64,000 nucleotides of DNA, from NCBI RefSeq assembly GCF_003231275.1, contig NZ_QKVL01000006.1, positions 124,001 to 188,000 of the forward strand, written 5' to 3'. Positions 9,961 through 29,964 of this stretch are shown here, in pieces. The position numbers were made by a program, and so were the translations under genes. The notes beneath the pieces are model-generated. The model saw nothing but the letters and a program-made list of their open reading frames with translations, did not search any database and was not told the origin of the DNA. Positions within the stretch are counted from its first letter, which is position 1, and each line of letters starts with the position of its first letter. The DNA is from Pseudomonas huaxiensis. GTDB taxonomy: Bacteria; Pseudomonadota; Gammaproteobacteria; Pseudomonadales; Pseudomonadaceae.

Positions 9961-9984
9961 ATAACCAAACGATCTGCAAGATTT
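9961..9984 (+). promoter_or_regulatory. 24-bp shared upstream element, copy 1
   Basis: ATAACCAAACGATCTGCAAGATTT here differs at only one position from 14461-14484. This copy precedes the desaturase-like gene by about 50 bp. It is probably a promoter or regulator site shared with the TonB receptor gene. No family match is known to me. Confidence 0.55.
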
Positions 9985-10016
9985 TTTCGTCTCGTCCCAC
10001 AAGCGGAGGTCAGCCC

Positions 10017-10133
10017 ATGATCCAGGACCTCCGCGAATGCCCCATTACCTCGACGACGCCCAGCGCGAAGATGTGTTGCGCCTGCAAGCCAGTTTTCTCG
10101 GGCGCAGCGAATGGCCGACCTGGCTGTTGCTGA
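10017..10133 (+). CDS. possible 38-codon leader ORF overlapping the desaturase start
   Basis: The best Shine-Dalgarno in this leader (GCGGAGGT, 7 nt before ATG 10017) serves not the desaturase frame but a short ORF in another frame that runs across the desaturase start and ends at TGA 10131-10133. It encodes a Cys-rich C-terminus and resembles no known protein. It may be a translational coupling or attenuation device, or simply chance. Confidence 0.3.
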   Translation: MIQDLRECPITSTTPSAKMCCACKPVFSGAANGRPGCC

Positions 10134-10978
10134 TCGGTGTCTATGCCGGCTGGTTCGCGCTGTTGCTGGCCAGCCCGGTTCTCGGCGTGTGGCCCACCAC
10201 CGTGCTGCTGGTGCCGCTGCTGGTGCTCTGGCTGTCGCTGCAACATGAGCTGCTGCACGGCCATCCGACGCGCTTCCTCTGGCTGAACAAATTGATCGGC
10301 TACGCGCCGTTCGCGGTCTGGTATCCGTACACCCTGTACCGCGACAGCCACCTGCTGCACCACCGCGACGAAGACCTCACCCTGCCGGGCCGCGACCCGG
10401 AAAGCCGCTACCTCAGCCGTCACCATTGGCAAAAAGCGCCACGCCTGGCGCGGGCGCTGCGTTGGCTGGACAAGACCGTGCCGGGACGGGTGCTCAGCGG
10501 TGCACCGCAGGCGCTGTTCGGCCTGGCGCGGGAAGAGCTCGCCCGGCTGGCGAAGGGCGATCGACAGGCGTGGCTGATGTGGCTGACCCACGGCGCCGTG
10601 ACCCTGCTGATGTTCGTCTTCATCGCCGAATACAGCGCGCTGTCGGTGGCGCACTACGTGTTTTTCGTCAGCGTGCCGGCGTTGTCGGTGGCGATGGTGC
10701 GTTCTTTTTATGAACACCGTCCCGCCGAGCGACCGGAGCAGCGCACTGTGCTCAACGAGGCCGGTTGGCCCTGGAGCTGGCTGTTCCTGCACCTGAACCT
10801 GCACCTGGTGCATCACGATCTTCCGGGCTTGCAATGGTATTTCCTGCCGCAGGTCTACCGCCGCCGCCGCGAGCAGTGGCTGGCGCGCAGCGGCGGTTTC
10901 CTGGTGCACGGCTATGGCGAGTTGTGGCGCCGCAATGCTTTCAGTCCTGTCGATAGCCCTGAACATCCCCACGCCTGA
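10037..10978 (+). CDS. membrane fatty-acid-desaturase-fold diiron oxygenase
   Basis: A 313-residue integral membrane protein of the FA_desaturase superfamily. The three histidine clusters that bind the diiron centre are present: HELLHGH, HLLHHRDED and HLVHHDLPG, with paired membrane segments before and between them (about residues 27-72 and 175-205). Members include acyl desaturases and hydroxylases, and the substrate is not predictable. ATG 10037 has only AGGA 10 nt upstream. The PhnD-like gene follows after 14 bp, so the two form an operon. Because of the shared upstream element and the downstream genes, it may oxidise a small amine rather than a lipid; this is inference. Confidence 0.8.
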   Translation: MPHYLDDAQREDVLRLQASFLGRSEWPTWLLLIGVYAGWFALLLASPVLGVWPTTVLLVPLLVLWLSLQHELLHGHPTRFLWLNKLIGYAPFAVWYPYTLYRDSHLLHHRDEDLTLPGRDPESRYLSRHHWQKAPRLARALRWLDKTVPGRVLSGAPQALFGLAREELARLAKGDRQAWLMWLTHGAVTLLMFVFIAEYSALSVAHYVFFVSVPALSVAMVRSFYEHRPAERPEQRTVLNEAGWPWSWLFLHLNLHLVHHDLPGLQWYFLPQVYRRRREQWLARSGGFLVHGYGELWRRNAFSPVDSPEHPHA

Positions 10979-10992
10979 ACCGGAGTCCGCCC

Positions 10993-11796
10993 ATGTCCCA
11001 GGGTTTTGCCGAGTTGTTGATGTACGTCGCGCCGCCGCGGGTTTGTGCTGCCAGTGAGGCGTGGTTGCAGCGCACGCTGGCGCTGCTCGGTGCCAGCCGC
11101 CTCGACGCGGGCGGGCTGGACCTGCCGGGCCTGTGGCTGTCGCCGCAATTGCTGTTCACCCAGACTTGCGGCTATCCGCTGATGACCCTGCTGCGCGGCA
11201 AGGTGCAGGTGATTGGCCGGCCCGTCTACGAACTGCCCTACAGCGGCGGTGGCGACCATTGCAGCCTGCTGGTGGCCCGGGCCGACGACCCGCGCCGCGA
11301 GCTGGCGGCGTTTTTCGACAGCCACGGCCTGATCAACAGCCCCGACTCCAATTCCGGCATGAACCTGCTGCGCCATCGCCTCGCGCCACTGCAACGCGAG
11401 GGCCGCTTTTTTTCGGCCATCAGCTACACCGGCGGCCATCGCGACAGCCTGCGCGCCTTGCGCGAGCGGCGTGGCGATCTGGCGGCCATCGACAGCGTGA
11501 CCTGGGGTTACCTCGCCCGTGACCACAGCGAAGAAGTCGCCGGGCTGCGCATCATCGACATCAGCGCGCCAAGCCCGAGCCTACCGTTCATCGGCCCTGC
11601 GCACCTCGACCCCAACGCTGCGGCGCTTATCCGCGACGCGCTGAACCAGGCGCTGCAGGACTTGCCGGAAGTCGCCACGACCCTCGCGATCAGTCGCGTG
11701 CTACCGGCGAGCGAGGCGGATTACCAGGTGCTGCTGGATTACCGCGACGAGGCTGCCAGACGGGGCTTGGCGCGGATTCATCCCGAAGACGGGTAA
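10993..11796 (+). CDS. PhnD/SsuA-like periplasmic-binding-fold protein without signal peptide
   Basis: A 267-residue protein with the phosphonate-binding PhnD fold: the TQTCGYPL strand, the Y-S-G-G-G-D loop, NSPDSNSGMNLLRH and the second-lobe motif SAISYTGGHRDSLRAL. PhnD-like receptors normally begin with a signal peptide, but this one starts MSQGFAELLMYVAPPRV and has none, so it is predicted to be cytoplasmic. It may bind a ligand as a sensor or chaperone. A Shine-Dalgarno CGGAG precedes ATG 10993. No permease or ATPase gene is adjacent. It sits between the desaturase-like gene and fecI/fecR. Confidence 0.75.
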   Translation: MSQGFAELLMYVAPPRVCAASEAWLQRTLALLGASRLDAGGLDLPGLWLSPQLLFTQTCGYPLMTLLRGKVQVIGRPVYELPYSGGGDHCSLLVARADDPRRELAAFFDSHGLINSPDSNSGMNLLRHRLAPLQREGRFFSAISYTGGHRDSLRALRERRGDLAAIDSVTWGYLARDHSEEVAGLRIIDISAPSPSLPFIGPAHLDPNAAALIRDALNQALQDLPEVATTLAISRVLPASEADYQVLLDYRDEAARRGLARIHPEDG

Positions 11797-11912
11797 TTCC
11801 ATTAATGAATATAAGAATGCTTTTTAAATATTTTTAAAGAATAAGACCTCCCACTAGCATGGCGTCACCGGACCACCGGACATTTCAAGCAATCCTCCTT
11901 CTGGAGCCATTC

Positions 11913-12419
11913 ATGTCCGGTATCGAAAACTCTCACAGCGATTACGTGGGCGGCCTGTTCCGCAGTCATTACCAGTGGCTGTGCCTGCGTTTGCGCCGGC
12001 ATCTGGGCGACAGCGGCGCGGAAGACATCGCCGCCGACACCTTCGTGCAGTTGCTCAGCGCGCCGGGTGTGGAACCGATCCGCCAGCCACGGGCGCTGCT
12101 CACCACCATCGCCCAGCGCCTGATGTACCAGCTCTGGCGCCGCCGTGACCTGGAGCGGGCCTACCTTGAGGCCCTGCACCTTGATGACGAGGCGCAGGCG
12201 CCGTCGCCGGAAGAACTGACGCAAATGATCGAGGCCCTGCAGATCATCGACGGCCTGCTCGACGGCCTGCCGGCCAAGGTCAAGGCGACCTTCCTGCTGT
12301 CCCAGGTCAACGGCCTGACGTACCCGGAAATTTCCGCGCAACTGGGCATCTCGCAACGCTCGGTGAGCGACTACATGGCCAAGGCCATCCACCGTTGTCT
12401 CAAGGCCAGTCTGGAGTGA
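11913..12419 (+). CDS. FecI-like ECF sigma factor (first of three in the window)
   Basis: A 168-residue ECF sigma factor. Region 2 is near the N-terminus (LFRSHYQWLCLRLRRHLG, then AEDIAADTFVQLL) and region 4 near the C-terminus (LPAKVKATFLLSQVNGLTYPEISAQLGISQRSVSDYM). ATG 11913 follows CTGGAG by 6 nt. The upstream 116 bp are AT-rich with only a weak resemblance to a Fur box. The cognate anti-sigma follows directly. The natural partner receptor is the STN-bearing TonB receptor at 14561, now separated by the hipBA remnant. Confidence 0.9.
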   Translation: MSGIENSHSDYVGGLFRSHYQWLCLRLRRHLGDSGAEDIAADTFVQLLSAPGVEPIRQPRALLTTIAQRLMYQLWRRRDLERAYLEALHLDDEAQAPSPEELTQMIEALQIIDGLLDGLPAKVKATFLLSQVNGLTYPEISAQLGISQRSVSDYMAKAIHRCLKASLE

Positions 12420-12420
12420 T

Positions 12421-13371
12421 ATGAGCGTTGAACAGGACCACCTGATCGAACAGGCCACCCGCTGGGTCGTGCTGCTGCGCTCGGGGCATGCCAGCGATGC
12501 GGAGCGCCAGGCCTTCCAGGCCTGGCGCGCCCGCGACCCGCGTCACGAAGAACTGTGCCTGCGCCTCGAACGTACCCTCGGAGTGTTCCAGGTCCCGGTC
12601 GCCCAGGGCATCGACGGCAGCGTGCTGCAACGCGCGCTGAATGCGCCGTCGAGCCGACGCAAGGTGCTGCAACGGGCGTTGCTGGGTGCCGGGCTGATGA
12701 TCGGCGGTGGCCTGACCCTCAGCCCCGGGTTGCCGTCACTGGACAGCCTGAGCGCAGATATCTCCACCGGCATCGGCCAGCGCCAGACCGTGCAACTGGA
12801 CGACGGCAGTGAACTGGTGCTCAACGCACAGAGCTCTGCCGACGTGCGTTTCGACGAGCAGCGTCGGCTGCTCAAATGGCGCGGTGGCGAGGGCCTGGTG
12901 CGGGTGGTCAACGATCGTCGGCCGTTTATCGTCCAGACCGACGCCGGCGACCTGTTCGCCCGTGCTGCGCAGGTGTTGGTACGCGAGCGCGGTGCGCAAT
13001 GCCGGGTTGGTGCGCTGGATGCACCGGTGCAGATCGTCACCCGCGGCGGCGATCGCTTGCAGCTCCAGGCTGGACAGGAAGTCAGCTTCGACCGCTACCG
13101 CTTCGGCGTCGTCGAGGCCGTGCGCAACGGCGACAGCGCCTGGGTAAACGGCCTGCTGGAAGTGCGCGACAGCCCGCTCAGCGAGGTGATCGAAGCATTG
13201 CGGCCTTACCGCCACGGCGTCCTGCGCCTCGACCCGGCGATCGCCGGGCTGCGGGTCAGCGGACTCTATCGGCTGGACCAGAGCGATATGGTGCTGGAAG
13301 CGCTGAGTCGGACCTTGCCGATTCGGGTGGCCCGGCGTAGCGATTATTGGGTGACGTTGGTTCCGGCATAA
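12421..13371 (+). CDS. FecR-like anti-sigma factor / regulator
   Basis: A 316-residue FecR-family protein that relays signal from a TonB receptor to the sigma factor. The N-terminal cytoplasmic DUF4880-type domain contains EQATRWVVLLRSGHASDAER and FQAWRARDPRH. One membrane segment lies around residues 82-102. The periplasmic FecR domain follows (QRQTVQLDDGSELVLNAQS). The C-terminus is the STN-like part that touches the receptor. Its ATG lies 1 nt beyond the sigma-factor stop. Together with the upstream gene it forms a cell-surface signalling pair. Confidence 0.9.
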   Translation: MSVEQDHLIEQATRWVVLLRSGHASDAERQAFQAWRARDPRHEELCLRLERTLGVFQVPVAQGIDGSVLQRALNAPSSRRKVLQRALLGAGLMIGGGLTLSPGLPSLDSLSADISTGIGQRQTVQLDDGSELVLNAQSSADVRFDEQRRLLKWRGGEGLVRVVNDRRPFIVQTDAGDLFARAAQVLVRERGAQCRVGALDAPVQIVTRGGDRLQLQAGQEVSFDRYRFGVVEAVRNGDSAWVNGLLEVRDSPLSEVIEALRPYRHGVLRLDPAIAGLRVSGLYRLDQSDMVLEALSRTLPIRVARRSDYWVTLVPA

Positions 13372-13443
13372 ATCAAATCGCCAAGGTGCAGTTTTTGCTC
13401 CCCGTGAGTCCGCGTAAAACTGCCAAAGACAATGTTGGTGAGT

Positions 13444-14050
13444 TCACTTTTCCAGTTTCTCGGCGCCCATTGCCGCGATTGCCAACTGCAACTCGGCCGC
13501 CTGCAACTGCTCGTGATAATGCTCTTTCAACTCAGGAGCCCAGCCAGCAACTTCATTGATCACGGCTGTAGCCTCAGCCTCAGTCAAACCGAAGTGACCG
13601 ACCTGGCTCAGCAGGTTGCGCCGTGATAGTTCATGCCCATAGCGACCGATACCCATCGCCAACCTGGAAGGCGCCTGCCCTTCAGTCGTGGGCACCACGT
13701 CGTACAGGGGAGAAAGACGCCAGCCGCCATTTGTGAATATCACTGCTGTGTTTTTCGGGTGATCGTCGTCGTTGCCCACCAGAATGTTGAAGCAGATGCG
13801 TTTGAACAGCTCCTGCCGGTCCCCTTCGGGGATGTTGCGCCTTGTCATTTCGTCTACGAGATAGCCGTAGTGCTTTGCCGTAGGGCTGGGATCGCAGCGG
13901 AAAACGGACAGGGTCCGGCACCCAGCCACCGGCATCGACCCAGGCCGGGCTGTAGACGAATTCGCCGATGCCGTTACGGACTTCCAGGCGGCCCAGTGTG
14001 GTGACGTCATCCGAGCCGGGTATTTGCATGTAGATGTAAACGGAAGCCAT
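13444..14050 (-). pseudogene. hipA-type toxin kinase remnant with internal deletion and frameshift
   Basis: The first 50 or so codons (from ATG 14050) read a canonical HipA N-terminus ending GGWVPDPVRFPL. Near 13898-13905 the homology jumps to another frame that gives the HipA C-terminus (GYLVDEMTRRNIPEGDRQEL, NILVGNDDDHPKN, SPLYDVVPT) and ends at 13444. HipA proteins are about 420-440 residues; only about 200 remain. The missing middle contains the nucleotide-binding lobe and activation loop, so a working kinase cannot be made although the DDHPKN catalytic loop survives. It overlaps hipB by 1 nt (TGATG). Confidence 0.85.
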
Positions 14051-14355
14051 CAGAAGTCTTCCTCGGAAAATTTCCTGAGACGGACGCGGTGCTCCGTGGC
14101 ACGCGGAGCAATGGTGGGAACAGCGGGATCTTGGAAGGCCTCGTCCAGCAGCCCCAGGTGCCAGAGGGCTGTCATGTAGCTGCGTATCTCGACGCTTGGA
14201 ATGCCGGACTCGATCTTGCCGAGTGTCGTTGTGGACAGTCCTGTTTGAGCGGCAAGGTCTTTCTGGCGAATTTTTCGCTCCAGGCGTCTGGTTTTGACCA
14301 GAAGCCCAATCTTTTCGAGCCTGTCAGCGCAGGCCAGTGGAAAGATGCTCGTCAT
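14050..14355 (-). CDS. HipB-like XRE-family antitoxin/repressor
   Basis: A 101-residue helix-turn-helix protein. The HTH is in residues 27-55 (RQKDLAAQTGLSTTTLGKIE). HipB normally neutralises and co-represses hipA. Here the partner toxin is broken, so the repressor is an orphan, still apparently intact. It is on the opposite strand to the genes on both sides and lies between fecR and the TonB receptor. That placement suggests the module was inserted into an older fecI-fecR-receptor cluster. Confidence 0.8.
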   Translation of the reverse strand: MTSIFPLACADRLEKIGLLVKTRRLERKIRQKDLAAQTGLSTTTLGKIESGIPSVEIRSYMTALWHLGLLDEAFQDPAVPTIAPRATEHRVRLRKFSEEDF

Positions 14356-14460
14356 AAGAACTCTTTTGAGAATGCTTAATTGATTTAAGGTCGACTGTAG
14401 CAGCTCTTATGTGTCGGTGATTTTTGCCGGCGTAGCGGCTTCACACCCGGTTCTAAGCCC

Positions 14461-14484
14461 ATAACCAATCGATCTGCAAGATTT
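14461..14484 (+). promoter_or_regulatory. 24-bp shared upstream element, copy 2
   Basis: ATAACCAATCGATCTGCAAGATTT is the near-identical partner of 9961-9984. It lies 76 bp upstream of the TonB receptor start, in the 190-bp gap between the divergent hipB and the receptor. Confidence 0.55.
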
Positions 14485-14560
14485 CCCCTTCCTGCGCCAC
14501 ACCCTTCCCGTAAGCGCTGCCGAGGGAGCAGCGTCGTTTGATTCCGTGGGGGGAATCGTT

Positions 14561-17227
14561 GTGCGCAAGAGCAAAGACAAGATCCAACGCAACACGACAT
14601 CCGCAACCGGTGCCATCGCGTTCAGCCTGCTGCTGAGCGGCATGGCGCTCGCCGACGAGGCGCGGCAGAACTGGCATATCAATCCCGGCCCGCTGGACGA
14701 GGTGCTGCTGAGCATCAGCCGGCAGAGCGGTCAGGTGATTTCCTTTACGCCGGAACTGGGCCGTTATTCTTCGGCGCGGGTCGACGGCAATCTCTCCGCC
14801 GAGCAGGCGATCAACGCTGCCTTGCGCGGCACCGGCCTGGAGCTGGAAGTCAGCCCGACTGGCGCGTTCATTATCAAGGGCAATGGCACCGAGCCCGCAG
14901 CAGCCAACGCCGCCAGCGCCAGCACGGTAGCGCGCAACCAGACTTCCGCAGCCAGCGTGCCGACTCTGGACCGGGTGGTCGCCCTCGGTACCCGGCGCAG
15001 TGACGCTACCGCGCTGACCAGCGCCGCGCCGGTAGACGTGATCAACAGCGAAGAGCTGGTGCAGACCGGCGCCACCACCCTGAACCAGGCGCTGTTCCAG
15101 TTGCTGCCGTCGTTCAACTTCCCGCAGAACCAGAGCGCCACCCGCGGCCAGAACCCCAAGGGCGCCTCGTTGCGCGGGCTGGCGCCGGACCAGACGCTGG
15201 TGCTGGTCAACGGCAAGCGCCGGCATGCCTCGGCGGTGGTGAACATTTCCAGCGGCGTGCCGTTCATTGGCGCCCAGCCGGTGGATCTGGACATGATCCC
15301 GATCAGCGCCATCGACCACGTCGAAGTGCTGCGTGACGGCGCGTCGGCGCAGTACGGCTCCGACGCGGTGGCCGGGGTGGTCAACATCGTGCTCAAGGAG
15401 CGCGACACGGGTGGGCAACTCAATACCCAGGTCGGCCAGTACGGCCAGGGCGACGGTTTCAACAAGAGTGCCGATGGCTGGTACGGCATCGGGCTGCCGG
15501 GTGACGGTTTCCTGACCCTGAGCTTCAACGGCGTCAACAGCAAACCCACCGATATCGGTGACAGATACGTCGCCGACGGCAAGCTGCAGGACCCGCGCTG
15601 GGGTGGTGCAGGCCGTGACAAATACAACCTCGCGGCGAACGCCGAGGTCGGTCTGAACGATCAATGGCGACTGTACAGCTTCGCCACCTTCGGTCAGGAC
15701 AAGTCGATCAACAACACGCCGCCGTTGCTGGCGTCCAGCCCCAATAACGTCGCGGCGATCTACCCTAACGGGACCATCCCGAAATACCGCTTCCGCTACG
15801 AAGATTCCTCGCTGACGGTGGGTTCACGCTTTGAAGACGAGGTTATCGGCCGCCTCGATATCAGCGCTACCTACGGCCGCGACAAGCACGACGAACTGGC
15901 CTTCGACACGGTCAACCCGAGTTATGGCGCCAGCAGCCCGACCAAGTTCGACGTCGCCACCCTGATCAACGAACAGACCAACGTCGGCATCGACTACACC
16001 AAGGACCTGCCGGTGGCCTGGTCGGACAACCCGCTGACGGTGTCCGCCGGCGTCGCCTACCGCCACGAGGAGTACACCTTGGAGGCGGGCGACTACGACT
16101 CCTATTCCTACGGCGGCATCGACGGTGTGCAGGTCGGCGCGGTGCAGGCGTCCGGGCTGACGCCGGATGACGCAGGCGTCTACAAGCGTGATGTTGGCGG
16201 CGTGTACTTCGGCCTGGAAAACCAGCTCACCGAGAAATTCCAGGTGGGTATCGCCGGGCGTACCGAGCACTACTCGGACTTCGGTTCGGCCACCACCGGC
16301 AAGCTCTCGGCGCGCTACGAACTGACCCCGCAAGTGGGCCTGCGGGCCACGGTCAACAGCGCCTACCGCGCACCGACCCTGGGGCAGATCGGCACGTCCT
16401 GGACCACCACCACCAACGTCGATGTCAACGGCAACCCGGTGCTGACCCGCATGCTGCCGGTGGACCACCCGGCCGCCCAGGCGCTGGGCGCCGAGGCACT
16501 GAAACCGGAGAAATCCACCAACTACTCGCTGGGCGTGGTGTTCCGGCCGAGCGAGCAGGCTTCGCTGACCATCGACGCCTACCAGATCACCATCCGCGAC
16601 CGCCTGCTCTATAGCGGCGGCATCTCCGGGCCGGATGCCGAGCGCATCCTCGCCGCTGCCGGCTACGGTCAGTACAGCTGGGCGCAGTTCATGACCAATG
16701 CGGCCAACACCCGGACCCGCGGCGTCGACATCGTCGGCAAGTACAACCTCGACCTCAAGCAGTTCGGCAGCCTGGCGCTGTCGGCCGGCTTCACCAAGGC
16801 GCGGACCACCATCGAGTCGGTCAATGCCAGCCCTTACGGCTTCGACATCCTGACCCGCGAGGCCCGTGGCTTCCTTGAGCACGGTTACCCGGAAAGCAAG
16901 CTGGTGCTTGGCGCGGTGCATCGCTACGGCCCGTGGACGGTGAGCCTGTCCGAGACGCGCTACGGCGAGTACCGCAAATACGCGGCCTCGGCCACCAACG
17001 CCCAGTACGACCAGACCTTCTCGGCGCAGTGGAACACCGATCTGGACGTGAACTACGCGTTCACCAGGCAATTGAAGCTCTCGGTGGGCGCCAACAACCT
17101 GTTCAACAGCAAGCCGGACGACTTCAACCTCCGCCTGCGCCAGACGCCGGGGCAGCAGTACAGCTACCTCGCGCCATCGGCGCCCGAGGGGGCGTTCTAT
17201 TACACCAAGCTCACTTACGACTTCTGA
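14561..17227 (+). CDS. TonB-dependent outer-membrane receptor with STN signalling domain
   Basis: An 888-residue receptor. I start it at GTG 14561 behind GGGGGGAA; a GTG at 14546 is also open. Signal peptide about residues 1-31 (SLLLSGMALA-DE), STN domain about 35-90 (INPGPLDEVLLSISRQSGQV), a linker, plug from about 140 (APVDVINSEELVQTGATTLNQ, VEVLRDGASAQYGSDAVAG), then a barrel ending in a C-terminal Phe. The plug type is that of large non-siderophore receptors. The STN domain fits signalling to the FecR at 12421. Downstream are a REP pair and then genes for a betaine-type binding protein and two catabolic enzymes, so its ligand may be organic. Confidence 0.9.
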   Translation: MRKSKDKIQRNTTSATGAIAFSLLLSGMALADEARQNWHINPGPLDEVLLSISRQSGQVISFTPELGRYSSARVDGNLSAEQAINAALRGTGLELEVSPTGAFIIKGNGTEPAAANAASASTVARNQTSAASVPTLDRVVALGTRRSDATALTSAAPVDVINSEELVQTGATTLNQALFQLLPSFNFPQNQSATRGQNPKGASLRGLAPDQTLVLVNGKRRHASAVVNISSGVPFIGAQPVDLDMIPISAIDHVEVLRDGASAQYGSDAVAGVVNIVLKERDTGGQLNTQVGQYGQGDGFNKSADGWYGIGLPGDGFLTLSFNGVNSKPTDIGDRYVADGKLQDPRWGGAGRDKYNLAANAEVGLNDQWRLYSFATFGQDKSINNTPPLLASSPNNVAAIYPNGTIPKYRFRYEDSSLTVGSRFEDEVIGRLDISATYGRDKHDELAFDTVNPSYGASSPTKFDVATLINEQTNVGIDYTKDLPVAWSDNPLTVSAGVAYRHEEYTLEAGDYDSYSYGGIDGVQVGAVQASGLTPDDAGVYKRDVGGVYFGLENQLTEKFQVGIAGRTEHYSDFGSATTGKLSARYELTPQVGLRATVNSAYRAPTLGQIGTSWTTTTNVDVNGNPVLTRMLPVDHPAAQALGAEALKPEKSTNYSLGVVFRPSEQASLTIDAYQITIRDRLLYSGGISGPDAERILAAAGYGQYSWAQFMTNAANTRTRGVDIVGKYNLDLKQFGSLALSAGFTKARTTIESVNASPYGFDILTREARGFLEHGYPESKLVLGAVHRYGPWTVSLSETRYGEYRKYAASATNAQYDQTFSAQWNTDLDVNYAFTRQLKLSVGANNLFNSKPDDFNLRLRQTPGQQYSYLAPSAPEGAFYYTKLTYDF

Positions 17228-17241
17228 TCCTCCGGGTTTCC

Positions 17242-17313
17242 CTCGCTGGCAAGCCAGCTCCCACACGGTCAGCGGTGCATGCACACCCCTGTGGGAGCCG
17301 GCTTGCCGGCGAT
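17242..17313. repeat. inverted REP pair (REPIN-like)
   Basis: The left arm ends GGCAAGCCAGCTCCCAC (17264); the right arm is GTGGGAGCCGGCTTGCCGGCGAT (17291-17313), the C/G variant, so the arms differ by compensating positions. It separates the receptor from the binding-protein gene. Confidence 0.85.
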
Positions 17314-17350
17314 GAGGCCCTGACGGTCAGGCCGAATTCGAGGCACTACC

Positions 17351-18355
17351 ATGAAACCACTGAAAACCCTCCTGGCCGGCTCGCTGCTGACCTTATCCCT
17401 GCTCACCCACGCCGCCGACAAACCGCAGCCCATCCACTTCGGCGACATCACCTGGGAAAGCGGCAGCCTGATCACCGAGATCCTCCGCACCCTGGTGGAA
17501 AAGGGCTACGGCTACACCACCGACACGCTGCCGGGCAGCACCGTCAGCCTCGAGGCGGCGCTGGCGAAAAACGATATCCAGGTCATTGGTGAAGAATGGG
17601 CCGGGCGCAGTCCGGCCTGGGTCAGGGCCGAAGCCGAAGGCAAGGTGTTCGGCCTCGGCGACACGGTCAAGGGCGCTACCGAAGGCTGGTGGGTGCCGGA
17701 ATTCGTCATCAAGGGCGACCCCGAGCGTGGCCTTGCACCGCTGGCGCCGGAGCTCAAATCGGTGGCCGACCTGCCGCGCTACGCCCACGTCTTCAAAGAC
17801 CCGGAATCCCCCGACAAGGGCCGCTTCCTCAACAGCCCAACCGGCTGGACCTCGGAAATCGTCAACAGCCAGAAGCTCAAGGCTTATGGGCTCACCGACA
17901 GCTACGTCAACTTCCGCACCGGCTCCGGCGCGGCGCTGGATGCCGAGGTCGGCGCATCGATCCGCCGTGGCAAGCCGGTGCTGTTCTACTACTGGTCGCC
18001 GACGCCGCTGCTGGGCCGTTACAAGCTGGTGAAACTGGAAGAACCGCCGTTCGACGCAGAGGCCTGGAAGACCCTGTCCGATACCAACAACCCCAACCCG
18101 CGCGGCACCCGCTCGATGCCGGCGCGCCTGGCGATCGGCGTGTCCGCGCCGTTCCGCACGCAGTACCCGGAACTGGTGGCGTTCTTCGAGAAAGTCGATT
18201 TGCCCATCGACCTGCTCAACCAGACCCTCGGCCAGATGGCAGAAAAGCGTCTGCAACCCAAGGCCGTGGCCCAGGCGTTTTTGCGCGACCACCCCGACGT
18301 GTGGCGTGCCTGGCTGCCAGCGGACGTTGCGGCGAAGGTGAGCGGGAGCCTGTGA
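17351..18355 (+). CDS. ProX/OpuAC-type periplasmic substrate-binding protein
   Basis: A 334-residue glycine-betaine-family ABC substrate-binding protein. Signal peptide about residues 1-21 (TLLAGSLLTLSLLTHA-AD). The OpuAC-type core shows FGDITWESGSLI, an EEWAGR loop, GWWVPEFV and FYYWSPTPLL; the Trp/Tyr residues are of the kind that cage quaternary ammonium groups in this family. No permease or ATPase gene lies nearby, so it must use a transporter encoded elsewhere or act with the TonB receptor upstream. The OCD gene starts 4 nt after its stop. It is the clearest hint that the cluster handles a betaine. Confidence 0.88.
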   Translation: MKPLKTLLAGSLLTLSLLTHAADKPQPIHFGDITWESGSLITEILRTLVEKGYGYTTDTLPGSTVSLEAALAKNDIQVIGEEWAGRSPAWVRAEAEGKVFGLGDTVKGATEGWWVPEFVIKGDPERGLAPLAPELKSVADLPRYAHVFKDPESPDKGRFLNSPTGWTSEIVNSQKLKAYGLTDSYVNFRTGSGAALDAEVGASIRRGKPVLFYYWSPTPLLGRYKLVKLEEPPFDAEAWKTLSDTNNPNPRGTRSMPARLAIGVSAPFRTQYPELVAFFEKVDLPIDLLNQTLGQMAEKRLQPKAVAQAFLRDHPDVWRAWLPADVAAKVSGSL

Positions 18356-18359
18356 TTGC

Positions 18360-19370
18360 ATGAACACACGACCGATCTACATCGACTTCCTCAATGGCCT
18401 CGACGTCGCCGAGCTGAACCTGAACAACGATGAAATCCTCGCCGCCGTCGAAGCCGGCCTTGCCCTTCAGGGGCAGGGCGCGGCAGTGATCGAGCCGCGC
18501 ACGCACTTGATTCCCGGCGGCGCCATCAATGGCCATTTCAACGTGCTGCGCGGCGTGCTCGGCGGCGATGTTGGCCGCGCCGGAGTCAAGGTGGTGGGCG
18601 ACTTCGTCGACAACTACCAGCAAGGCCTGCCTTCGGAACTGGCCATCCTCAACCTGCTGGACCCGGCCACCGGCGTGCCCCAGGCGATTCTCGACGCCTC
18701 GGCGATCACCGACATGCGCACCGGCGCGCTGACCGCCATCGGCGCCCGACACCTGGCCAATCCGCGCAGCAAGGTGCTGGCGCACATCGGCGCGCGGGGC
18801 ACGGCGTACTGGAATGTGCGGCTGCTGGATCACCTGTTCGACTTCGACGAGATCCGCGTGCACTCGCGCCGGGCCGAGAGCCGCGAAGCCTTCGCTGAGC
18901 GCCTGCGCCGCGATCTGGGCAAGCCGGTGATCGTCACGGAAGACTGGGAAAGCACCGTGCGCGACGCCGATATCGTGGTCGAAGCCTCGCGCCTGCAACA
19001 GCCCGAGCCGCTGCTGCGCACGGAGTGGATCAAGCCCGGCGCCTTTGTCGTGCCCTACGGCACCATGAGTGCGGTGGAGCTGTCGCTGACCGACATCATG
19101 GACAAGCTGGTGGTGGACGACTGGGGCCAGTGCAAGGGTGGCCAGTTCGGCTCGCTGCGTGCCCATGTCGAGGCCGGCAGGCTCAGCGAGCAGACTTTGC
19201 ATGCAGAGCTTGGGCAGATCGTCGCCGGGCTGAAACCCGGTCGCGAGCACCCGCAGGAAACCATTCTGTTCTGGCACCGCGGCCTGAGCCTGAGCGATAT
19301 CGCCCTCGGCCATGCACTGCTGGAAAAGGCCCGTCGGCTGGGTATCGGCCAGCGGCTGCGCTTTGCATGA
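18360..19370 (+). CDS. ornithine cyclodeaminase / mu-crystallin family protein
   Basis: A 336-residue NAD(P)-binding protein of the OCD/mu-crystallin family. It has the family core THLIPGGAINGHFNVLRG, VKVVGDFVDNYQQGLPSE, and DASAITDMRTGALTAIGARH, then the Rossmann strand VLAHIGARGTAYWNVRL. Members are cyclodeaminases, amino-acid dehydrogenases or ketimine reductases, so the reaction is open. The usual G-x-G-x-x-G is G-A-R-G-T-A here. It overlaps the lyase homologue downstream by ATGA, so the two are translationally coupled, and it follows the binding protein by 4 nt. Confidence 0.85.
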   Translation: MNTRPIYIDFLNGLDVAELNLNNDEILAAVEAGLALQGQGAAVIEPRTHLIPGGAINGHFNVLRGVLGGDVGRAGVKVVGDFVDNYQQGLPSELAILNLLDPATGVPQAILDASAITDMRTGALTAIGARHLANPRSKVLAHIGARGTAYWNVRLLDHLFDFDEIRVHSRRAESREAFAERLRRDLGKPVIVTEDWESTVRDADIVVEASRLQQPEPLLRTEWIKPGAFVVPYGTMSAVELSLTDIMDKLVVDDWGQCKGGQFGSLRAHVEAGRLSEQTLHAELGQIVAGLKPGREHPQETILFWHRGLSLSDIALGHALLEKARRLGIGQRLRFA

Positions 19371-20833
19371 GTGCACTGGAACTGGGGGTTGATGGCCTCG
19401 CGCTGCCTCAGTTGCTGGCGTTGGTGGACGATGACGCACCGCTGCAACTGAGCAGCACGGCGCGCGGCCGCATCGAGGCCGGGCATCGCCTGTTGCGTGG
19501 GCTGATCGCCGCCGGTGAACCGGTCTACGGCGTGACCACCGGGCTTGGTGCAGCAGTGGATCAGGCGCAGGCACTGGACGATGTGGCGTTCCAGCAACGC
19601 ATCGCCGCAGGCCGGGCGGTGGGTGTCGGGCGCCTGGCGCAGCGGCGCGAGGTGCGGGCGATCATCTGCGCCCGCCTGGCCGGGCTGGTCCAGGGGCGCT
19701 CCGGTATTTCCCTGACCTGCGCCGAGCGCCTGCTTGATCTGCTCAACCATGGCATCCATCCCGAAGTGCCTTTGCTCGGTTCCCTGGGCGAAAGTGATCT
19801 GGCGCCATTGGCCCATCTGACCCTGGCCTTGCAGGGGCAGGGCTGGGTCGAATACCGCGGAGAGCGACTGACGGCGGATGAGGCCCTGCGCCGTGCCGGG
19901 CTGAGTCCGATCGTGCCAGGGGACAAGGACGGTCTGGCGCTGGTCTCGGCCAATGCGGCGAGCATCGGCCTTGGCGCCTTGCTGGTGATCGAGGCAGAGC
20001 GTGTGCTGGCGCGGCAACTGGCGGCGCTGGCGTTGTCTTGCGAAGGCTACCGCGCCAGCCTCGCGCCGTTTCAGCCCCGGGCGGCGGGGCTGCGTCCGGC
20101 GCCGGGGCAGGTCGAGGCGGCGGCCGATTTGCTCGGGTTGCTGGCGGGCAGCGACTTGAACGATCCGTCGCATGCTCGGCGTTTGCAGGACCCATTGAGT
20201 TTCCGTTGTTCGACCATCGTCGTCGGCGCCGCCCGGCGCGCCTGGGCTTGTGCCCGCGAAGTGCTGGAAATCGAGCTGGCCAGCGGCGCGGACAACCCGG
20301 CGCTGGTGGACGAAAGCCGGCAGGTGCTGGTGACTGCCAACTTCGACAGCACGCATCTGGCGTTGGCCTTTGAAGGACTGGGACTGGCGTTGAGCCGGGT
20401 AGCGGTGGCGAGTGCGGAGCGCATGGCCAAGCTGCTGTCGCCGTCGTCCAGTGACCTGCCGCGTTCGCTCAGCCCGCGTCCGGGGCGCGTCGGGCTGGCG
20501 GCGTTGCAGCGCACGGCGGCGGCATTGGTGGCGGAGATCAGCCATCTGGCCAACCCGATTCCGGCCATCAGCGTGCCGGTGGCTGACCGCGTGGAGGACT
20601 ACGCCGGGCAGGCGCTGGCGGTGATCGAAAAGACCCGCGCGCTGCTGCAACGGCTGGAATGGCTGACCCGCATCGAAGCGGTGATTGCGGCGCAGGCGGT
20701 GGACCTGCGCGGCGGGATTCGTTTGGGCGAAGGCGTGCGCCGGGTGTACGAACAGGTTCGCTGTCGGGTGCCGTTCGTCGATGAGGACCGGACTGTGGAC
20801 GTAACGGGCGACGAATGGTGGTCGCTGGATTAG
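19367..20833 (+). CDS. aromatic amino-acid ammonia-lyase homologue lacking the MIO triad
   Basis: A 488-residue HAL/PAL-superfamily protein (ATG 19367 overlaps the OCD stop). YGVTTGLG carries the conserved catalytic Tyr. At the cofactor site, where HutH has G-S-V-G-A-S-G-D-L-A-P-L-A-H, this reads G-S-L-G-E-S-D-L-A-P-L-A-H: the Ala-Ser-Gly that cyclises to MIO is gone and one residue is missing, with codons GGC GAA AGT GAT intact. The NGT motif is S-A-N and the QDxYSxRC Tyr is Leu (QDPLSFRC). MIO-less homologues include ergothionase, which expels trimethylamine. A similar elimination on a betaine substrate is plausible here. Confidence 0.85.
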   Translation: MSALELGVDGLALPQLLALVDDDAPLQLSSTARGRIEAGHRLLRGLIAAGEPVYGVTTGLGAAVDQAQALDDVAFQQRIAAGRAVGVGRLAQRREVRAIICARLAGLVQGRSGISLTCAERLLDLLNHGIHPEVPLLGSLGESDLAPLAHLTLALQGQGWVEYRGERLTADEALRRAGLSPIVPGDKDGLALVSANAASIGLGALLVIEAERVLARQLAALALSCEGYRASLAPFQPRAAGLRPAPGQVEAAADLLGLLAGSDLNDPSHARRLQDPLSFRCSTIVVGAARRAWACAREVLEIELASGADNPALVDESRQVLVTANFDSTHLALAFEGLGLALSRVAVASAERMAKLLSPSSSDLPRSLSPRPGRVGLAALQRTAAALVAEISHLANPIPAISVPVADRVEDYAGQALAVIEKTRALLQRLEWLTRIEAVIAAQAVDLRGGIRLGEGVRRVYEQVRCRVPFVDEDRTVDVTGDEWWSLD

Positions 20834-21144
20834 TGCGTGGTGGCGCTGGTGCCCCAGCGACTGTCACGCCTGCTGTGCGGTGCACCTTGTTCGGTCATGG
20901 CCGCGAGGATGTCCATGGCGCTGTGGCCCTGCTCGATGGCGATGCCGAAACGCACGCTGTCGATCAGTCGATCCAGGCGTTGCGGGTCGTTGCGCTGGGC
21001 CGGGCTGATCAGGCGTTTGGCGACCACACCGCCGGTTTCGTTGGACAGCGTCAGCATGATGCTGCCGTCCAGCCGCTCGATACTCAGGTTGACCCGGTAC
21101 TGCGCCGAAAAGGCGGCGCTGATCTGCTGAAAGGGATTGTGCAT
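20830..21144 (-). CDS. DUF3509-family protein
   Basis: A 104-residue protein starting MHNPFQQISAAFSAQYRVNL, with RNDPQRLDRLIDSVRFGIA, which matches the small Pseudomonas DUF3509 family as I recall it. The ATG at 21144 follows AGGTGAG and is preferred to the upstream in-frame start at 21171. It converges on the lyase gene with a 4-bp overlap of the stops. There are no membrane segments or recognised catalytic motifs. Role unknown. Confidence 0.7.
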   Translation of the reverse strand: MHNPFQQISAAFSAQYRVNLSIERLDGSIMLTLSNETGGVVAKRLISPAQRNDPQRLDRLIDSVRFGIAIEQGHSAMDILAAMTEQGAPHSRRDSRWGTSATTH

Positions 21145-21246
21145 GGTGCTCACCTGACAAATGACGTGCATCGATTGACTGGCCTCGAGGCGGGTAGTTC
21201 AGCTCAGGTTGCAAGGGTCGGGCCGGACGGTGGGGTGCCGGTGCAT

Positions 21247-21280
21247 AAAAAAAGCCCCGGGCCTCAAGGCCAGGGGCTTT
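21247..21280 (-). terminator. rho-independent terminator of the HPF-like gene
   Basis: AAAGCCCC...GGCCT and AGGCC...GGGGCTTT form a long stem. On the minus strand it is followed by a run of T, and it lies 29 bp after the HPF-like stop. Confidence 0.8.
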
Positions 21281-21308
21281 CTCTACCGTCCGCGTTACCG
21301 CGTGATTA

Positions 21309-21713
21309 TCAGCTCAGACGAGCCTGTTCGTTTTCCAGGAATTCTTCCTGCAGCAGCCCGTCGGCGTCATTGGCACTGCTTTCTTGCTGGGTGACTGCGC
21401 GTTTGCTGCGCTGCTTGCCGTAATAGTGCTCCAGCGCGTGGTTCAATTTCTCTGCGGCGCCCTCGACAGCCAGTTCCAGCGATTCGGCTTTGTGGGATAC
21501 GGAAATCGGTTGATGGCCTTTTGGGCGTGCCTCCATCTGGCAGCGTTTGTCATGCGGGCCTGGCTTGTCGCCGTTTTCATCGCGCATGTGGACTTCAATT
21601 CGGGTGAGGTCCTCTTCGTAGCGTTCGAGCCTGCTTTCTACCGTGCTGCGAACCCACTCGTTCAGCCGGATACTGCCTTGAATATGGTTGTCGCTGTTGA
21701 CCTGGATTTGCAT
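21309..21713 (-). CDS. HPF/RaiA-type ribosome-associated protein
   Basis: A 134-residue protein with the sigma-54-modulation/HPF fold: MQIQVNSDNHIQGSIRLNEW, VESRLERYEEDLTRIEVHMRD, and AVEGAAEKLNHALEHYYGK. Family members bind and inactivate ribosomes in stationary phase. It is distinct from the short HPF near rpoN because of its acidic C-terminal tail (NDADGLLQEEFLENEQ). It is monocistronic, with its own terminator. The 236 bp upstream are AT-rich around 21830-21860 and likely hold the promoter. Confidence 0.85.
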   Translation of the reverse strand: MQIQVNSDNHIQGSIRLNEWVRSTVESRLERYEEDLTRIEVHMRDENGDKPGPHDKRCQMEARPKGHQPISVSHKAESLELAVEGAAEKLNHALEHYYGKQRSKRAVTQQESSANDADGLLQEEFLENEQARLS

Positions 21714-24459: not shown

Positions 24460-25395
24460 TCAAGCCCGGCCTTCCACCGTCACCCAATACCGCGTAAAGC
24501 GCTTCACCCGCACCGGCAACGCCACTTCCAGCAGATCAAGAATCCGCTCGCTGTCCGCCAGTGGATAACTCCCCGATACCAGCAGCCCCGCGACCCTCGG
24601 ATCGCAATTGAGCTGCCCGCGACGGTAGCGGCCCAACTCGTCGAGGAACTCGCCCAGCGGCATGTGCGCGGCCACCAGCATACCGTCGACCCAGGCGCCG
24701 CTGTTGGCGTCCAGCGGGCGTCTGGCGCTCCAGCCGCTGGCGTCGAAGCGGGCCTGGCGGCCGCTTTCCAGCAAGGCACCATCAAGGCTGGCGCTGCCCT
24801 GGAACACCGCCACGCTGCTGTGCCGCGACCACTGGCGAACGTTGAAACGCCCGGCGGAAAGGTCCAGCAGGCCGTCGTCGGTCTGTACCCGCAACGGGCG
24901 ACTGTCATTGGTCACGGTGAGCAGCAACTCGCCTTCGAGCAGGTGAATCAGGCGCTGCTCGGCGTCGAAACGCACATCGGCGGCGCTGGCGGTGTTCAGG
25001 TGCAGTTGGCTGCCGTCGTCCAGGCGCATTTGCCGGCGCTGGCCCAGCGGGCTGCGGTAATCAGCCAGCAGCGGCGTCAAGCTGTGGTTGGCGTTCAGGC
25101 CAAACCCGACGGCGCTGCCGGCGCCCAGCAGCAACAGCATTTTCAGCGCACGACGGCGGCTGGCCGAGGCGGGCGCCTGCAAGGTGGCATGGGCCAGCGG
25201 CGAGGACAGCCCGCCCAGGCGCTGGTTGACCCGCTGGATATGCGCCCACGCCCGACGGTGTTCTTCGCTGGCCTGCAACCAGCGCTCCATGGCCAGTTGC
25301 TGACGGTGATCCAGCGTGCCGCCCTGGAGTTCGATCAGCCAGTGCACGGCCTGCTCGGCCACTTGATGGGAAAACGCGGGATTCGGTGTGTTCAC
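24460..25395 (-). CDS. fecR: FecR anti-sigma/regulator of the ferric citrate system
   Basis: A 311-residue FecR. The cytoplasmic N-terminus has EQAVHWLIELQGGTLDHRQQ and ERWLQASEEHRRAWAH, one membrane span lies near residues 85-105 (MLLLLGAGSAVGFGL), and the periplasmic FecR domain contains QRRQMRLDDGSQLHLNTAS. It passes the FecA STN signal to FecI. Its ATG overlaps the fecI stop by 4 nt. Role inferred from family and gene order. Confidence 0.92.
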   Translation of the reverse strand: MNTPNPAFSHQVAEQAVHWLIELQGGTLDHRQQLAMERWLQASEEHRRAWAHIQRVNQRLGGLSSPLAHATLQAPASASRRRALKMLLLLGAGSAVGFGLNANHSLTPLLADYRSPLGQRRQMRLDDGSQLHLNTASAADVRFDAEQRLIHLLEGELLLTVTNDSRPLRVQTDDGLLDLSAGRFNVRQWSRHSSVAVFQGSASLDGALLESGRQARFDASGWSARRPLDANSGAWVDGMLVAAHMPLGEFLDELGRYRRGQLNCDPRVAGLLVSGSYPLADSERILDLLEVALPVRVKRFTRYWVTVEGRA

Positions 25396-25895
25396 AGGGC
25401 GAAGTAGCAGCGCAGGGCGGCCTTGTTCAGATGGCGTTTGACCGTGGCCAGGGAAATCCCCAGTTGCGCGGCGATTTCGTTGTAGGTCAGGCCGTCGACC
25501 TGGGCCAGCAGGAAGGCGCGCTTGACCTGCGCCGGCAGGCCGTCGAGCAGACGGTCCAGTTCCAGCAGGGTGTCGAAGATGATCGCCCGGTGTTCTTCCG
25601 ACGGTGCGACCTCTTCCGGCAGTTGCGCCAGCGCCTGCAGGTAGGCGCGCTCCAGCTCCTGGCGGCGGTAGTGGTTGAACAGCACGCGCTTGGCCACGGT
25701 GGTGAGGAACGCCCGCGGCTCGTTCGGCGCCGGCGTTTCGCGGGCCTGGAGCAGGCGCATGAAGGTGTCCTGCGCCAGGTCGGCGGCGCTGTCCGGGCAG
25801 CCGAGACGGCGCCGCAACCAGCCGGTCAGCCAGTGGTGGTGATCGTGGTAAAGACCTTCGACCGATGTAGACAGGGCGGTTGGGGCACTGGGCAC
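25392..25895 (-). CDS. fecI: FecI ECF sigma factor of the ferric citrate system
   Basis: A 167-residue ECF sigma factor. Region 2 includes WLRRRLGCPDSAADLAQDTFMRLLQ, with region 4 at the end (GLTYNEIAAQLGISLATVKRHL). The frame is open up to an ATG at 25973, but a Fur-like box (25930-25944) and a TACAAT -10 box (25949-25954) would then lie inside the gene. GTG 25895 has GGAG exactly 8 nt upstream and gives the usual FecI length, so I use it. It heads fecI-fecR-fecA. Confidence 0.88.
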   Translation of the reverse strand: MPSAPTALSTSVEGLYHDHHHWLTGWLRRRLGCPDSAADLAQDTFMRLLQARETPAPNEPRAFLTTVAKRVLFNHYRRQELERAYLQALAQLPEEVAPSEEHRAIIFDTLLELDRLLDGLPAQVKRAFLLAQVDGLTYNEIAAQLGISLATVKRHLNKAALRCYFAL

Positions 25896-25929
25896 CGTGG
25901 ACACTCCGGCGCCGGGATGCGCAACAGAA

Positions 25930-25954
25930 TAAGAATTGTTCGCATTGTATGAGT
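25930..25954 (-). promoter_or_regulatory. fecI promoter with Fur-like box
   Basis: TAAGAATTGTTCGCA (25930-25944) fits the 7-1-7 Fur pattern with symmetric AGAAT/GTTC halves. It overlaps the start site set by the minus-strand TACAAT -10 (25949-25954). Confidence 0.65.
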
Positions 25955-26038
25955 GAAAGCCGGAATTCGGCAATCGGACGTTGACTGGCGGTCTGTAGGA
26001 ATCATTCGGCGAGGGCGTCGGTCAGACAGTTTTGCTTG

Positions 26039-26053
26039 TGAGAATCCTTATCA
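26039..26053 (+). promoter_or_regulatory. Fur box ahead of the DUF3649-PepSY operon
   Basis: TGAGAATCCTTATCA matches the 7-1-7 Fur consensus TGATAAT-N-ATTATCA at all but two positions. It is 39 bp upstream of ATG 26092, so the operon 26092-32370 is probably iron-repressed. Confidence 0.8.
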
Positions 26054-26091
26054 TTTATATTGGCGGCCTTTTCCGCCCTGGAATCTCCCTC

Positions 26092-26397
26092 ATGAAAAGC
26101 AAAGCCGCCGGGCTGCCGTTGAGTTACCGCATGGCCGTGGCGTCCCGCTGCCTTGCGGCGCTGCTCGGCGGCTACCTGCTGGCGGCGATGGCCAGTGTCT
26201 GTTTCAGCCTGCTGCTGCCGATTCCCCGGGCCGAAGCGGTGCTCAGCGGGATGATGCTGTCGTTCCTGTTTTACCTGGGGGCGTTCATCTGGGTCTTTGC
26301 TGCGCGCAGCGCGTTGCTGGCCTGGTTCGGCGTGCTGGCGCCCAGTGCGCTGCTGGGGGTGATCAACGGACTGACGTGGTGGGTGACCAACGCATGA
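26092..26397 (+). CDS. DUF3649-family small membrane protein (iron uptake operon)
   Basis: A 101-residue inner-membrane protein with three hydrophobic segments (about residues 18-44, 48-70 and 74-96). The sequence pattern, including SYRMAVASRCLAALLGGYLL, matches the DUF3649 proteins that accompany PepSY reductase-like genes in Pseudomonas siderophore loci. ATG 26092 lies just behind a strong Fur box. It overlaps the next gene by ATGA. Probable accessory of ferric-siderophore reduction; mechanism unknown. Confidence 0.75.
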   Translation: MKSKAAGLPLSYRMAVASRCLAALLGGYLLAAMASVCFSLLLPIPRAEAVLSGMMLSFLFYLGAFIWVFAARSALLAWFGVLAPSALLGVINGLTWWVTNA

Positions 26398-27977: not shown

Positions 27978-28303
27978 TGCTGGCCATTGCGCTGTTGGCC
28001 TTCGCCGGTTCTGCCGCTTTGTGCCTGGCCATGGAAAAGCACTTCAGCGACCTGCTCGAACGCAAGCCGACCCGGCGGCAACTTAAAGGGCTGCGTGTCG
28101 CCGGCTGGCTGTTGATGGCGTTGGCCCTGGCCGCCGCCGTGCATCACAGCGGCTGGGCGATGGGCCTGGTCGAATTGTCCGGCGTGCTGATGGCCGGCCT
28201 GTGCCTGTGGGTGTTCGCCTTGCCGTACCGGCCGCGCTGGCTGCTGGGGCTGGCGGCGGCGAGCCTGTTGCTGGCGCCGTTTTCCGCACTGGGGCTGATC
28301 TGA
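27977..28303 (+). CDS. DUF3325-family membrane protein
   Basis: A 108-residue inner-membrane protein with about four hydrophobic stretches. AGSAALCLAMEKHFSDLL and LRVAGWLLMALALAAAVHHSGWAMG are typical of DUF3325, a family that commonly follows PepSY_TM reductase genes. Its ATG shares a base with the PepSY gene stop (TGATG), so translation is coupled. Function unknown, probably part of the reductase complex. Confidence 0.8.
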   Translation: MLAIALLAFAGSAALCLAMEKHFSDLLERKPTRRQLKGLRVAGWLLMALALAAAVHHSGWAMGLVELSGVLMAGLCLWVFALPYRPRWLLGLAAASLLLAPFSALGLI

Positions 28304-28307
28304 ACCG

Positions 28308-28874
28308 ATGAGCGAACCCCTCGACCCGCCGTCCGCCGACGCCCCGGCCCGCGCCCGCTTTCTGCAGGTGTTTCTGGCCCAGCGTGCGCGGATGGAAAGC
28401 CTGGTCAGCCGGCGGGTCGGTTGCCGGGCCACGGCGGCCGATCTGGTACAGGAGCTGTTCCTGCGCTTCTGGCGTCGGCCGCAGGTCGAGGTTGAAGCGC
28501 TGGACAGCTACCTGATGCGCTGCGCCGGCAATATCGCCATCGACCACCTGCGCAGTGAAGGCGCTCGCGAGCGGATCAACGACAACCTGCCCGAGCCGAT
28601 TCAACAGGCGCTGGAAAGCGAGCCCCAGGCCGCGCTCGAAGCCGACAGCGACCTGCGTCGGATCGAAGCGGCGCTGCGGGAGCTGCCCGAGCGCACCCGG
28701 CACATCTTTTTGCTCAACCGCATTCACGGACGCACCTACGGCGAAATCGCCAAGGTCATGCAGGTGTCCCAAAGCGCGGTGGAAAAACATATGATGCGGG
28801 CCCTCGAGGCCTGCAAGGCGAGTGTCGCCGCAGAGCCCGAGCTGCCCCGCAAGCCTGGAACCGCGCCGCGATGA
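28308..28874 (+). CDS. FecI-like ECF sigma factor (third)
   Basis: A 188-residue ECF sigma factor. Region 2 spans RVGCRATAADLVQELFLRFW and region 4 spans ELPERTRHIFLLNRIHGRTYGEIAKVMQVSQSAVEKHMMRAL. It begins 4 nt after DUF3325, which places the sigma gene inside the same Fur-controlled unit. It overlaps the next fecR by 4 nt. Likely drives the receptor at 29965. Confidence 0.92.
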   Translation: MSEPLDPPSADAPARARFLQVFLAQRARMESLVSRRVGCRATAADLVQELFLRFWRRPQVEVEALDSYLMRCAGNIAIDHLRSEGARERINDNLPEPIQQALESEPQAALEADSDLRRIEAALRELPERTRHIFLLNRIHGRTYGEIAKVMQVSQSAVEKHMMRALEACKASVAAEPELPRKPGTAPR

Positions 28875-29857: not shown

Positions 29858-29964
29858 AAAAATATTTTCAGATTCAGGTGAGGTATCCCGCGGCGGCGTC
29901 CGTGTAGTGAGTGGAAGTGCGATTGATTCGCATATATGAAGGCTTCTCTCACAGGTTCATCGGC

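Follow-up and report, generated by a model that had tools for sequence, protein, structure and literature searches.

The breakdown of ergothioneine, a histidine betaine that contains sulfur and is plentiful in fungi, reportedly proceeds in five steps through thiourocanate, with a lyase lacking the 4-methylidene-imidazole-5-one (MIO) cofactor as the first enzyme, and a 2022 study by Yan, Huang and Zhang, represented here by its title as given in a reference, is said to report an in vitro catabolic pathway for ergothioneine sulfonate. Ergothionase reportedly takes ergothioneine sulfonic acid as well, a background point that shaped the desulfonation idea developed below, and FecI/FecR pairs with TonB-dependent receptors usually serve ferric chelates. 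PMC13405746 describes ergothionase as an enzyme without MIO, and a paper citing the 2022 work names Agrobacterium radiobacter as the source of that pathway's trimethylamine lyase. Here we describe an eight-gene cluster at positions 9961–20833 of a 64,000-nt window (the whole stretch of DNA analyzed) from Pseudomonas huaxiensis (NZ_QKVL01000006.1, 124,001–188,000). It encodes a desaturase-fold protein (DES), a PhnD-like protein, FecI, FecR, a TonB-dependent receptor, a periplasmic binding protein ('ProX'), an ornithine cyclodeaminase/mu-crystallin family enzyme (OCD) and a MIO-less lyase homolog. An earlier note on this DNA had read these genes as an undescribed surface-signaled system for a betaine such as ergothioneine or hercynine. 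From gene content and sequence patterns, we consider it an even call that the cluster is a surface-signaled scavenging operon for ergothioneine sulfonate (oxidized ergothioneine) or a very close relative.

A conserved eight-gene unit in Pseudomonas

All eight genes were found where the earlier note had placed them and in the families it had named, judged by Pfam profile matches, with NCBIfam cut-offs used for finer naming (Table 1); in many unannotated comparison loci, gene names were assigned by eye. The last three genes are indeed tightly packed, with a 4-nt gap between ProX and OCD and a 4-nt overlap between OCD and lyase.

A genome scan with the lyase returned 26 loci, 25 from Pseudomonas and one from an alphaproteobacterium. 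One Pseudomonas locus (L049; L and G numbers denote loci and genomes) is cut at OCD and was excluded, and the counts that follow cover the other 24. The lyase is present in 24/24 by construction, the loci having been found through it; FecI and OCD occur in 24 each, DES, PhnD, FecR, the receptor and ProX in 23 each, and an SsuA-type (sulfonate-type) binding protein, which passes two NCBIfam cut-offs and is encoded between ProX and OCD, in 21. All 24 loci keep one gene order, with protein identities of 55–99%. The linkage asserted earlier thus withstood comparison within Pseudomonas (24 loci, one order), where the eight genes are a conserved unit. L045 lacks DES, PhnD and ProX, and L057 lacks FecR and the receptor, an apparent case of decay as is L112, which has additionally lost OCD and lyase. 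OCD was found in 16 of the 298 Pseudomonas genomes sampled. Several carriers of the cluster (P. gingeri, P. reactans, P. costantinii) are species that we take to be mushroom-associated. A literature search, with subscription journals mostly beyond its reach, yielded no paper that we recognized as dealing with this Pseudomonas cluster.

Two sub-operons share a 24-bp upstream element, as had been claimed, and its copies (starting at 9961 and 14461) differ by one base. The core of the element lies upstream of DES in 22/22 regions examined, with at most five mismatches in 18; this list leaves out L048 and L052, and a separate look found the element in L052 and not in L048. Upstream of the receptor it is present in 23/23 regions examined, and it was seen separately in L060, which stands outside that list. 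The genes for the sigma factor, FecR and receptor occur in that order, both by Pfam match and in the 24-locus comparison, and the cluster's FecI may recognize the element. FecR matches PRK09774 below the cut-off (199 bits, cut-off 385). Plug and barrel domains establish the receptor as TonB-dependent; the STN domain that the earlier note had assigned to it stays below threshold (20.1 of 28.4 bits).

Lyase, binding protein and companion enzymes

Alignment bore out that the lyase is MIO-less, since the triad is replaced and the motif is one residue shorter (GSLGES-DLAP vs GSVGASGDLAP). A function as histidine ammonia-lyase (HutH) was rejected on the missing ASG triad and an NCBIfam score of 320.6 of 539.15 bits. 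The closest solved structure by sequence is ergothionase of Treponema denticola (6s7j; E 2.5e-76, the next at 2.2e-58), which again came first by model comparison, made with a lyase model of moderate confidence (predicted local distance difference test, pLDDT, 76.5) and poor active-site loops. At the QK position of ergothionase, 16 of the 17 MIO-less rows tabulated carry a basic residue, the exception being L131 and the HutH paralog of L009 being counted apart: the residue is Arg in the window lyase, L036, L042 and L053 and Lys in the remaining basic rows, vs Val or Tyr in HutH rows. The position of HutH His83 is Arg in the lyases of Pseudomonas, Rhizobium, BAL199, G564, G712 and G387, and His in ergothionase-type enzymes. 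From these sequence patterns we propose that the enzyme is a trimethylamine lyase. The MIO triad is also missing elsewhere: the hut operon of the same genome has a second HutH-like gene (C169:22800-24188, L171) without the ASG triad (GSVGYLTHMAH), and MIO-less HutH paralogs occur in L009 and at L088:15478-17112.

The binding protein belongs to the OpuAC family as the earlier note had it, but its betaine-type assignment gave way to a closer likeness: it shares 51% (51–52%) identity with the hut-operon binding protein encoded in its own genome, vs 24% with the genome's choline-type substrate-binding protein (SBP). It scores below the ProX and choline SBP cut-offs of NCBIfam (60.7 of 215 and 41.6 of 379 bits), as does the genome's own HutX. 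A 71% identical HutX-like paralog lies at a contig end (L172:6-1130, C195 of the same genome), with no cluster genes recognized on the readable side. OCD stays below the cut-off of all 13 NCBIfam models that it matches (SbnB, EutC, alanine dehydrogenase and others; best 170.3 of 409.15 bits), and may be an NAD(P)H-dependent desulfonating reductase, as its sequence family and companions suggest.

The histidine boxes of DES are invariant among 15 homologs, and its best NCBIfam match, GntB, reaches 22 of 380 bits. The AlphaFold model of the PhnD-like protein (pLDDT 91.8) is closest to AioX/ArrX and then to PtxB/PhnD; inspection of its translation by eye agreed with the earlier note that it has no signal peptide. 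DES homologs were found in 47 of 398 Pseudomonadota genomes, and among the neighborhoods read for 18 of the 46 such genomes other than our own, 14 contain PhnD, mostly without OCD or lyase. The pair is accompanied by an XRE-type regulator in some of the loci L112–L129, and some pairs adjoin, by eye, betaine-type ATP-binding cassette (ABC) genes (L120, L122) or DAO-type oxidoreductases (L114, L118, L123). OCD and DES occur together in 8 of 11 OCD genomes, vs DES in 47/398 overall (hypergeometric P 2.7e-6), a weak statistic given that six of the eight belong to one Rhizobiaceae genus.

Substrate assignment and its alternatives

Outside Pseudomonas, the neighborhoods of binding protein, OCD and lyase point to histidine and sulfur. 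Rhizobium plasmids carry genes for a sulfate exporter, a coenzyme A (CoA)-transferase, a short-chain dehydrogenase/reductase (SDR), MaoC, a HutC-like regulator, lyase, SBP, OCD, PhnD, two permeases and an ATPase; Martelella has HutC-like, lyase, SBP, OCD, PhnD, permease and ATPase genes, and Polaromonas has YeiH, lyase, SBP, OCD and PhnD. A single plasmid stretch of Paracoccus holds HutC, PhnD, OCD, a sulfate exporter, HutF/I/H/G/U and a MIO-less lyase. OCD and PhnD sit between HutU and HutI in G645, with a canonical HutH present, and in G744 HutU, a HutH-like gene without ASG, HutI and HutG are followed by lyase, SBP, OCD, PhnD and ABC genes. Of 35 OCD loci outside Pseudomonas (the matches in G500, G503, G518 and G610 not being among those fetched), 16 have partner genes: MIO-less lyase in eight, hut genes or HutC in six, DES in five and PhnD in four.

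The observed gene content and order, shared element, residue patterns and hut and sulfur links suggest a scheme in which substrate, signal, permease partner and both reactions are predicted. The receptor would bind and import the betaine and, via FecR and FecI, activate both promoters in which the 24-bp element occurs. Capture in the periplasm would fall to the HutX-like protein, joined in most relatives by the SsuA-like one, and transfer across the inner membrane to a permease encoded elsewhere, with HutWV as the closest candidate. Once the betaine is in the cytosol, the lyase would eliminate trimethylamine from ergothioneine sulfonate, yielding sulfo-urocanate, and OCD would deliver a hydride to imidazole C2, releasing sulfite and urocanate; the latter may then feed the resident Hut pathway. 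OCD, the SsuA-type protein and YeiH-type exporters point to an oxidized sulfur form as substrate, and we favor ergothioneine sulfonate because a histidine betaine needing sulfur removal fits these companions. Both ergothioneine and its sulfonate occur in mushrooms, according to PMC12785439.

Several observations weigh against this assignment. The SsuA-type protein is missing from the window itself and from L036, L038 and L041, and the Pseudomonas clusters yielded no YeiH gene. In the window lyase, Arg takes the place of the His that ergothionase and HutH share, and the enzyme joins the Rhizobium type, apart from the ergothionase clade, in trees that, being unrooted, speak to grouping only and not to the number of MIO losses. 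Urocanase was found in 16/16 OCD-bearing and 9/10 comparison genomes and does not discriminate. The CoA-transferase, SDR and MaoC genes of Rhizobium are superfluous for the scheme, which likewise gives DES and PhnD no part. In G506, DES, PhnD, FecI, FecR, receptor and ProX stand together without OCD, followed, by eye, by genes for an SsuA-like protein, an LLM monooxygenase, cysteine dioxygenase and rhodanese. OCD may also do other work: it is not tied to this system everywhere, because 19 of the 35 non-Pseudomonas loci lack partners, although two of these (L142, L155) hold distant lyase-family genes and partner absence means little on the short contigs L143, L144, L152 and L158. Finally, deletion of hutH in Vibrio natriegens is reported to slow ergothioneine loss (PMC13276445), which argues against a strict need for a MIO-less lyase.

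Ergothioneine itself might be the substrate, with the lyase making thiourocanate and DES or OCD removing or oxidizing the sulfur later. The kinship of the lyase to ergothionase and the oxygenase fold of DES favor this, yet we consider it unlikely. The genome's single urocanase lies inside the hut operon and scores 693.5 of 930 bits as a thiourocanate hydratase, and no such hydratase above cut-off was found in seven of nine genomes tested, eight of which carry OCD. The two that have one, P. gingeri A6001 (G044) and G691, keep it in a separate operon (L173:6448-14891 and L174:2077-9733) with a MIO-less lyase, of the His type in P. gingeri, and, by eye, hydantoinase-like and M20-like genes. Both operons are probably ergothioneine pathways, and both genomes also hold the OCD module. 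The cluster is unlikely to be a thiourocanate pathway because P. gingeri A6001 carries that operon separately, and the plain thiourocanate route was set aside on this ground and on the hydratase missing from the own genome; the Arg at the His83 position is a further point against ergothioneine. Of the joint function proposed earlier, the chemical neighborhood of ergothioneine and hercynine thus survives, with a lyase nearest to a trimethylamine lyase, while the thiourocanate route is disfavored. We give a similarly low probability to DES and the cytosolic PhnD being a new oxygenase pair that oxidizes the ergothioneine thione to the sulfonate, so that the operon would take up ergothioneine through the FecIR-signaled receptor and convert it to urocanate, sulfite and trimethylamine. 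If true, the pair would represent a new class of enzyme, and the operon the first in which a histidine betaine is taken up and sensed through TonB.

Hercynine or another histidine betaine without sulfur, which the lyase could turn into urocanate directly while OCD does something else, would suit the HutX-like binding protein and the hut neighborhoods; it would leave OCD, SsuA and the YeiH-type exporters unexplained and seems to us slightly more doubtful still. It is improbable that another betaine, aromatic or not, yields an unsaturated acid degraded via CoA esters: the Rhizobium CoA-transferase, SDR and MaoC genes would fit, but the versions seen in Polaromonas, Martelella and Pseudomonas lack them, and the hut links count against this reading. 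A metallophore system, in which FecI/FecR and receptor serve a histidine-based chelator made or dismantled by OCD and lyase, draws on the usual ferric-chelate role of such genes and on the kinship of OCD to SbnB, a member of its family (136.8 of 326.9 bits), but appears highly improbable, with biosynthesis set aside, given that the 24 loci share no further gene (synthetase, exporter) and that Rhizobium, Polaromonas and Paracoccus have lyase, OCD and PhnD with neither a receptor nor FecIR.

Locus layout and comparison with described systems

An insertion of ~1.07 kb bearing a HipA-C match parts FecR from the receptor in the window, the corresponding gap in L041, the nearest relative, being 36 bp; the insertion also holds a short open reading frame (ORF) and leaves the 24-bp element intact. 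An ORF at 20815–21423 was rejected as an operon member, as it has no Pfam or NCBIfam match and its translation looks antisense by eye. Further downstream (25386–32370) lie a second FecR gene (28871–29857) with PepSY_TM and other genes, several without a Pfam match; these downstream genes are retained in L041 and L039.

Table 1. Coordinates of the cluster features within the P. huaxiensis window
Feature	Position	Strand	Family match or remark
24-bp element, copy 1	9961..9984	+	Upstream of DES; candidate promoter for the cluster's own FecI
DES, membrane diiron desaturase/hydroxylase-fold protein	10037..10978	+	PF00487 (FA_desaturase), 99.5 bits
PhnD-like protein without signal peptide, probably cytosolic	10993..11796	+	PF12974 (Phosphonate-bd)
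FecI-type sigma factor	11859..12419	+	Sigma70_r2 and Sigma70_r4
FecR-type anti-sigma/sensor	12421..13371	+	DUF4880 and FecR
Insertion relative to L041, outside the system	13374..14443		HipA-C match on minus strand, 13444-14010
24-bp element, copy 2	14461..14484	+	Upstream of receptor
TonB-dependent receptor	14561..17227	+	Plug and TonB barrel, sub-threshold STN; GTG start 14561 or 14546
HutX-like periplasmic binding protein ('ProX')	17351..18355	+	PF04069 (OpuAC)
OCD/mu-crystallin enzyme; putative NAD(P)H-dependent desulfonating reductase	18360..19370	+	PF02423 (OCD_Mu_crystall)
MIO-less aromatic-lyase homolog; putative trimethylamine lyase	19367..20833	+	PF00221 (Lyase_aromatic)

The 2022 ergothioneine sulfonate work, going by its title, probably anticipated the enzymatic core, so that of the 'undescribed system' it is the FecIR/TonB signaling and the DES/PhnD pair that stand as new, together with the kinship of the binding protein to HutX and an OCD-linked group of Arg-type lyases. 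If the sulfonate assignment is true, it provides testable genes for surface-signaled, TonB-dependent uptake of a histidine betaine, and the names 'histidine ammonia-lyase' and 'ornithine cyclodeaminase', which several records give to such lyases and OCD enzymes, would need replacing. The comparison also brings to light a widespread desaturase/PhnD pair.

Set beside ergothionase (6s7j), the window lyase shares the PF00221 fold, the best sequence and model match, the absence of MIO with the same one-residue shortening, the QDPLSFRC motif and the basic residue after Q; it differs in the Arg at the HutH-His83 position, its clade and its OCD partner. The five-step thiourocanate pathway likewise has a MIO-less lyase, but its hydratase is missing from the own genome. 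HutXWV of histidine utilization offers the 51% identical binding protein, whereas the cluster's version is encoded outside the hut operon, with a TonB receptor and FecIR. The PhnD-like protein has the fold of the oxyanion-binding proteins AioX, ArrX, PtxB and PhnD (template modeling score 0.78–0.81 to AioX), and unlike them lacks a signal peptide, is 21–23% identical and partners DES or OCD. Sigma factor, anti-sigma factor and receptor follow the order of FecI/FecR/FecA-type cell-surface signaling, here attached to a betaine-type catabolic unit and not to iron chelate uptake. With the 2022 pathway, finally, the cluster shares the proposed substrate, and Rhizobium plasmids carry a lyase–SBP–OCD–PhnD–ABC module; FecI/FecR, a TonB receptor and DES are additions of the Pseudomonas version, whose conserved unit includes no permease of its own.

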